NCBI GenBank assembly: GCA_015069575.1 | Contig: SVIH01000002.1 | Location: 1 to 64,000, forward strand | DNA: 64,000 nt | Direction of reading: 5' to 3' | Source of the DNA: Clostridiales bacterium | GTDB lineage: Bacteria > Bacillota > Clostridia > Christensenellales > QALW01 | In this document: piece after piece, positions 61,837 through 62,398 of the stretch | Layout: each line of letters opens with the position of its first letter | Numbering within the stretch: position 1 is the first letter of the stretch | Made by a program: the position numbers and the translations under genes | Notes under the pieces: model-generated | Seen by the model: the letters and a program-made list of their open reading frames with translations, nothing else | Database searches by the model: none | Told to the model about the DNA's origin: nothing

Positions 61837-62013
61837 TTGTGTTCGCAAGAACACAATATCGTTTTGCAACGCAGTTGAAAACATCATTTCGTGCCTTGCA
61901 CGAACATCGTTAAAAAGCGCACACAAAACGATGTTACACTTTATAGTGTAAACGATGTTGCCTCACGGCAAACAGTGTTGCGCTTCGCACAAACGATGTT
62001 GCACTTCGTGCAA
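61837..62013. repeat. Array of short hairpins separated by 6-nt ACGATG/CATCGT-type spacers
   Basis: Hairpins at 61837-61856, 61862-61881, 61888-61904, 61934-61951, 61958-61971, 61978-61992 and 61999-62013 have different stem sequences, each largely self-complementary. Confidence 0.75.
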
Positions 62014-62027
62014 AGGTATGTTATAAT
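61999..62027 (+). promoter_or_regulatory. Promoter of the four-helix-bundle gene, -35 inside the last hairpin
   Basis: TTGCAC (61999-62004)-17 nt-TATAAT (62022-62027); SD GCGAGGTGA before 62048. Confidence 0.6.
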
Positions 62028-62047
62028 TCTTTTGCGAGGTGATAACG

Positions 62048-62398
62048 ATGAGGGAAGATAAATTATCCGATTTATCAATGCAATTATCCGTGGATGTATT
62101 AAAGTTGGCAAAAGAACTTCGCTTAAAACGCGAAAATGTAATTTCAAATCAGATTGCAAGAAGCGCCACAAGTGTTTGTGCCAATATTGCTGAAAGTAAA
62201 TACGGTCATAGCCGTGCTGATTTTATTGCAAAACTTGAAATTGCATTAAAAGAAGCAAGTGAAACGGGCAAATGGCTTGAAATGCTTTTCAAAACTGATT
62301 ACATTGATGAAAAAACATACAAAGCTATTGATAAAACTTGTTCCACAATTCGTATATTACTAATCGCATCAATAAAAACAGCAAAAGGGAATAAATAA
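62048..62398 (+). CDS. Four-helix bundle protein (S23/23S rRNA-IVP family, Avd-like fold)
   Basis: About 116 aa; LSMQLSVDVLKLAKELRLKRENVISNQIARSATSVCANIAESKYGHSRADFIAKLEIALKEASETGKWLEML signature. Confidence 0.9.
   Translation: MREDKLSDLSMQLSVDVLKLAKELRLKRENVISNQIARSATSVCANIAESKYGHSRADFIAKLEIALKEASETGKWLEMLFKTDYIDEKTYKAIDKTCSTIRILLIASIKTAKGNK

Follow-up and report, generated by a model that had tools for sequence, protein, structure and literature searches.

The closest described relatives of the locus reported here are the IVS of 23S rRNA, which encode a protein of the same family (S23) and have been described as selfish, horizontally spread elements with inverted-repeat ends. IVS replace hairpin tetraloops of the rRNA, and in the Coxiella IVS the S23 start codon is directly preceded by tandem GACAGAT heptamers, whose number varies between strains (PMC4990558). 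Heptamer repeats are also known as the cyanobacterial STRR, which are 7-bp repeats (PMC2670836), and from Xanthomonas, with hundreds of GGGAATC heptamers, many of them in inverted pairs (70 to 75 pairs; PMC4692102). The structure of an S23 protein encoded by Xanthomonas is known (2gsc). Like the arrays described below, STRR and GGGAATC repeats are intergenic, have a period of 7 and often form inverted pairs; they have been reported without a partner gene or generator. Our searches of the open-licence literature turned up neither a report of arrays at S23 loci nor one that ties heptamer repeats to S23.

Other systems resemble parts of the locus. In REP/BIME systems with a RAYT, opposed hairpins lie beside one small gene, and non-autonomous copies are dispersed. 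Integron cassettes form tandem units that carry small, unrelated cargo genes and have recombination sites that fold, and islands that target tRNA genes by tyrosine integrases insert at the tRNA 3' end and duplicate tRNA-end sequence. Diversity-generating retroelements (DGRs) encode Avd, a homolog of S23 (PMC10053308).

Here, we compare these systems with a hairpin array and its S23 gene in a 64-kb stretch of DNA (the window, meaning the whole stretch that was analysed). Judging from genome comparison, this locus is probably a copy of a small mobile element, consisting of an S23 gene and mirrored repeat arrays, that inserts behind tRNA genes.

A hairpin array between tRNA genes and an S23 gene

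The locus has the following features.

61634 to 61709, plus strand: tRNA-Val (TAC), the upstream anchor (ARAGORN; Rfam RF00005)
61719 to 61795, plus strand: tRNA-Asp (GTC) (ARAGORN); the element begins directly 3' of the tRNA end, and the spacing to S23 is typical of the 63 S23 loci with an upstream tRNA
61794 to 61833, plus strand: intrinsic terminator hairpin at the tRNA/array junction, 18-bp arms and T-run
61837 to 61856: hairpin H1, perfect; its 5' side alternatively pairs with the array centre (P1)
61857 to 61862: left spacer TATCGT
61862 to 61881: hairpin H2, imperfect
61882 to 61887: left spacer CATCAT
61888 to 61904: hairpin H3, perfect
61905 to 61910: left spacer CATCGT
61911 to 61927: array centre; its ACACAAA complements the TTTGTGT with which H1 begins (P1)
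61928 to 61933: right spacer ACGATG
61934 to 61951: hairpin H4, perfect
61952 to 61957: right spacer ACGATG
61958 to 61971: hairpin H5, perfect
61972 to 61977: right spacer ACAGTG
61978 to 61992: hairpin H6, one mismatch
61993 to 61998: right spacer ACGATG
61999 to 62013: hairpin H7, perfect; includes the -35 box TTGCAC (61999 to 62004)
61999 to 62027, plus strand: sigma-70-type promoter of the S23 gene, TTGCAC-17-TATAAT (TATAAT at 62022)
62048 to 62398, plus strand: S23 (four-helix-bundle) gene, 116 aa, PF05635 and TIGR02436

The array comprises seven hairpins (61837 to 62013) with 6-nt spacers, and spacer orientation switches at about 61911 to 61927. It begins directly 3' of the intrinsic terminator, which in turn lies directly behind tRNA-Val and tRNA-Asp. 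The initial annotation, made from the sequence without database searches, had described such a hairpin series, a mid-array inversion from TATCGT/CATCAT/CATCGT on the left to ACGATG/ACGATG/ACAGTG/ACGATG on the right, and a last hairpin overlapping the -35 box of a correctly placed promoter; all the sequences that it listed are present, H2 and H6 being the imperfect members. Overlap between the -35 box and the last hairpin is limited to the window's sequence family, and elsewhere the promoter merely abuts the array. A detector for opposed spacers and hairpins found one site in the window, which is this array, and none in ten shuffled windows. The folding z score of the array is -4.3 on the plus strand. 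Near the array, Rfam returned only tRNAs and one sub-threshold chance match, and no known RNA family.

The S23/Avd-family assignment in the initial annotation holds, as the protein matches PF05635 (E 5.5e-26; 91.3 bits, cut-off 33.8) and TIGR02436 (E 4.1e-28; 97.8 bits, cut-off 24) over their full length, with 2rld and 2gsc as relatives in the PDB. The window's genome has three S23 genes, and the two paralogues are 89% and 55% identical to the window copy. A defence system was considered and rejected, the protein having a weak, unconvincing match in PADLOC and none in PHROG. Downstream (62731 to 63195) is a small lipoprotein-like ORF with repeated CxxC motifs and no Pfam match. Elsewhere in the window, a prophage-like region (13327 to 16287) holds a DGR, with a target protein carrying a C-terminal DUF6273 (13327 to 14481), Avd (14529 to 14942; phrog_3206, 4.7e-22) and a reverse transcriptase (15226 to 16287), followed by an amidase-like ORF.

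Association of arrays with S23 genes across the order

S23 genes occur patchily, in 60 of 248 genomes of the order, and relatives have from 0 to 6 copies. Nearly all of their upstream regions follow the same plan, with a word that differs per locus (ACGATG, CTTCACT, GCATCAC, CATTATG, TATGTAATC, GTTATATT, ATGATG and others). Using a script that required at least five copies of one word and one orientation switch, we scored 112 non-redundant S23 upstream regions alongside control ORFs from the same contigs, the majority of loci coming from metagenome-assembled genomes. Opposed-word arrays precede 78 of the 112 S23 genes (70%), compared to 10 of 399 control ORFs (2.5%) and 3 of 560 shuffles; the initial annotation would have been contradicted by arrays occurring equally often without the gene, and they do not. 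Its description of a cis array of the S23 gene stands insofar as the gene has an array of its own, but the array is not a promoter element only, since array-plus-promoter modules are found before unrelated genes too. In six genomes (G224, G246, G019, G070, G159 and G170), there are dozens of REP-like hairpin arrays with the word GTGAAGT per genome.

Stem pairing and a conserved alternative fold

Among 17 relatives that share one word family, the spacers are invariant and the stems vary. Native stems average 5.24 bp, compared to 4.05 bp when arms are swapped between relatives and 3.41 bp after shuffling. A longer pairing, P1, joins the 5' arm of the first hairpin to the array centre over 9 to 12 bp and is kept, with compensating changes, in all 17 relatives; P1-like pairing was also recognized by eye in families of unrelated sequence. 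Because H1 and P1 are mutually exclusive, this indicates a conserved two-state fold. The arm-swap test and the conservation of P1 bear out the earlier suggestion of selection on structure, and the stems co-vary. A CRISPR array was rejected, given that the 6-nt words are constant, the intervening parts are self-complementary hairpins and no cas gene adjoins.

tRNA anchoring, unit boundaries and tandem units

A same-strand tRNA ends 100 to 450 nt before the S23 gene in 63 of 112 loci and in 0 of 709 control windows. The distance is mostly 215 to 275 nt, and 16 tRNA isotypes are represented; S23 loci without a tRNA often have an intrinsic terminator or a previous unit instead. Since tRNA terminators normally start right behind the CCA, part of this bias could reflect tolerance rather than targeting.

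Copies in different species and sites share, by blastn, a block from about -270 (the terminator) to about 9 to 18 nt past the last matched codon, i.e., from the terminator and array to just beyond the S23 stop codon. A differing downstream gene often overlaps the end of this block (ATGA): the junction AAAGGAGAATGCGAAATGA overlaps unrelated downstream ORFs, and at this boundary ...GCAAAGGAGAATGCGAAATGA supplies the variable ORF with a Shine-Dalgarno site and overlaps it by ATGA. The downstream ORFs include GNAT, NUDIX, nucleotidyltransferase, AAA and SdpI proteins, lipoproteins and ORFans, and the one cargo that was checked for conservation is nearly unique (1 of 248 genomes of the order).

Tandem units are found at eight loci (L008, L043, L065, L077, L082, L102, L151 and L161), with L008 containing two complete S23 elements, and several loci have extra terminator-array-promoter units behind the first unit. 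A family of near-identical terminators, CAACAAAAAACGC...GTCTACC..., recurs behind the CCA of many tRNAs and, as tandem copies, behind other units too. At L043, L065, L077, L082, L102, L134 and L161, the units have in common a pyrimidine-rich motif at their ends (CACC[TG]TTT... or ATCTTTTTT...). The next terminator follows about 20 nt further on, and the motif is possibly the 3' boundary of the unit. The S23 proteins of two loci in one genome (L004 and L015 in G013) differ strongly, and their flanks are identical upstream (tRNA-Asn) and near-identical downstream, which would fit a swap of array and gene body while the flanks stayed in place.

Empty and filled sites

We compared the orthologous tRNA-fMet locus among congeneric species, searching 20 genomes of genus g102. 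The site is empty, with the native terminator only, at four loci; three carry S23 of type 1, one carries S23 of type 2, and three have arrays but no S23. Compared to the empty L258, L270 carries 190 bp of additional sequence, inserted behind the tRNA CCA and accompanied by a 6-nt direct repeat (CTACCA), and the flanks are syntenic on both sides (87% and 77% identical), this insert being one without S23. Inserts with S23 are present at the tRNA-fMet site, though in no case are both flanks as clean as in this pair. At tRNA-Ala, two species of the window's own genus are syntenic up to exactly the CCA and then carry different array units.

We tested for a mobile element by two signs, namely whether orthologous sites differ in its presence and whether the junction shows a direct repeat; both were found, the direct repeat coming from the S23-less pair L258/L270. 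Movement of the element can be inferred from these comparisons. A recombination-active array was one option in the initial annotation, and the tandem copies and the orthologous empty and filled sites speak for it. In two of the array-only tRNA-fMet loci (L265 and L266), the segment of tRNA-fMet and array is inverted relative to both flanks when compared with sister species.

S23-framing repeats in other phyla

Outside the Clostridia, arrays mostly lie on both sides of the S23 gene, including downstream. We examined plasmid S23 genes of Nostoc, Dolichospermum, Aulosira, Planktothrix, Euhalothece, Gloeocapsa, Chlorohelix, Bernardetia, Treponema and Monoglobus. Inverted arrays of short words (score of at least 5) frame S23 at 11 of 17 loci, which include two phage loci, both negative, compared to 2 of 376 control windows. 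Each of the 30 plasmid S23 flanks, from five phyla, has 7 as its best repeat period, and self-match reaches at least 85% in 20 of 30 flanks versus 3 of 114 controls. S23 genes framed by mirrored 7-base repeats in several other phyla offer a possible source of repeats that have so far been unexplained.

A model of the element and its alternatives

Comparative sequence analysis establishes the architecture of the locus, its association with S23, insertion-type polymorphism, tandem units and co-varying stems. How could these fit together? The element would consist of a promoter, one S23 gene, an intrinsic terminator on the left and two mirrored arrays, each repeating a word of about 7 nt that is specific to the locus; in the window copy, hairpins separate the copies of the word. 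Insertion would take place directly behind the CCA end of a tRNA gene or following an earlier copy, which would let units build up in tandem. Further genes may travel with S23 or sit behind it, translationally coupled in some copies, and copies that have lost S23 would persist as array-plus-promoter modules. S23, a putative array-binding mobilizer, may recognize the arrays as folded single strands in the manner of a pentameric, Avd-like nucleic-acid binder, and may drive or guide mobility with a host enzyme, perhaps by switching from H1, the local hairpin, to the long stem P1 or back. The element encodes no recombinase or nuclease, and we know of no catalytic site in the four-helix bundle.

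The role of S23 is the step that calls for most caution. Many arrays, and whole array-rich genomes (G070, G159, G195 and G223 among them, by PF05635), lack a detectable S23, so S23 may be a passenger; arrays in such genomes point to past activity or to a different mobilizer, which is the main weakness of S23 as the mobilizer. Other genes lie directly behind similar arrays, for instance at L149, L160 and L177. An unlikely, though not negligible, explanation is that the arrays are REP-like or MITE-like dispersed repeats moved by an unrelated trans-acting enzyme, with S23 as the commonest passenger of promoter modules. However, S23 alone was seen repeatedly beside arrays whatever their word type and in different phyla, and some S23-less modules (the second unit of L102, and L184) keep the S23 start or an N-terminal remnant, so they look like deletion derivatives. 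Furthermore, the Y1 transposase (PF01797) is absent from 11 of 14 genomes tested, the window's genome included, on which grounds REP/RAYT was also rejected as an identity. Under the mobile-element reading, the modules before unrelated genes and the S23-less array-rich genomes make the arrays look like mobile-element ends or recognition sites, including those of S23-less derivatives.

We consider it improbable that the array is cis-regulatory, with S23 binding the hairpins in DNA or leader RNA to autoregulate its promoter, and mobility incidental or ancient. Such a function would suit an array directly upstream of the promoter, overlapping the -35 box in the window, and covariation-conserved structures that include the two-state H1/P1 switch, but arrays on both sides of the gene in other phyla do not fit it, and insertion-type polymorphism and tandem units would need another explanation. 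Ordinary promoter decoration was rejected because of the flanking arrays and the tandem units. Least credible by far is an anti-phage or retroelement system in which S23 would partner a trans-acting reverse transcriptase, much as Avd does in DGRs: S23 and Avd are homologous (PMC10053308) and the window's genome has a DGR with Avd and reverse transcriptase, but 8 of 14 genomes with S23 or arrays, G003 (four S23 copies) and G013 (six) among them, have no RVT_1, PADLOC gave no convincing match for S23, and no template/variable repeat pair was seen at the locus. Since these 8 of 14 carriers lack a reverse transcriptase and 11 of 14 lack Y1, neither enzyme appears to be generally needed.

Relation to described systems

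The mobile element proposed here differs from the systems that it resembles. Unlike IVS, the window element lies outside any rRNA gene and behind tRNA genes, possesses a promoter of its own as well as two multi-copy arrays in opposed orientation, and forms tandem units with other genes; an IVS was rejected because the locus lies between tRNA-Asp and the S23 gene with only tRNAs found nearby by Rfam. Unlike REP/RAYT, its gene encodes a four-helix bundle instead of a Y1 protein, and the word differs per locus. The S23 locus also lacks the reverse transcriptase, template and variable repeat of DGRs, and the absence of a nearby reverse transcriptase, together with the RVT_1 counts above, excluded that identity. 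Each S23 unit, unlike an integron cassette, has its own terminator and promoter and is anchored at tRNA genes, and no attC or IntI was noticed among the genes of the units read, which were inspected by gene content. In contrast to integrase islands, the element spans 0.2 to 0.7 kb and duplicates just 6 nt in the clean case; no integrase was present among the ORFs read between the tRNA and the next unit, and long tRNA-end repeats occur in few loci, so a tyrosine-integrase island was rejected. Because it fails the defining tests of IVS, REP/RAYT, DGRs and integrase islands, we rate the element as a new kind, which probably includes IVS as a special case.

In contrast to STRR and GGGAATC repeats as reported, the heptamers here are linked to S23, and those of Clostridia are interleaved with hairpins. 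It is tempting to go further and suggest, tentatively and with some doubt, that S23 proteins spread and perhaps synthesize heptamer arrays, such that free-standing S23 genes with inverted heptamer ends, tRNA-anchored hairpin-array units, rRNA IVS and orphan STRR would be one minimal mobile-element class, whose sole dedicated protein would be S23 and whose insertion sites would be hairpins in nucleic acids or the ends of tRNAs. This would join three loose ends, namely the role of S23 proteins, the movement of rRNA IVS and the origin of heptamers in Cyanobacteria and other bacteria, and a single small gene would make all of them testable. The known mobile elements would also gain a class of about 0.6 kb that has no recognizable recombinase and places promoters and translationally coupled genes beside tRNA operons.

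S23 elements also occur within restriction-modification or defence operons at five loci, always between two genes, in orders such as hsdS-S23-hsdR, DUF1156-S23-Swt1/HEPN and helicase-S23-methylase. At two further loci of different families (L198 in G067, with the order rlmD-S23, and L212 in G201), an array with the word TGAATTGC and an S23 gene follow immediately after the stop codon of a gene resembling those for 23S rRNA uracil methyltransferases.
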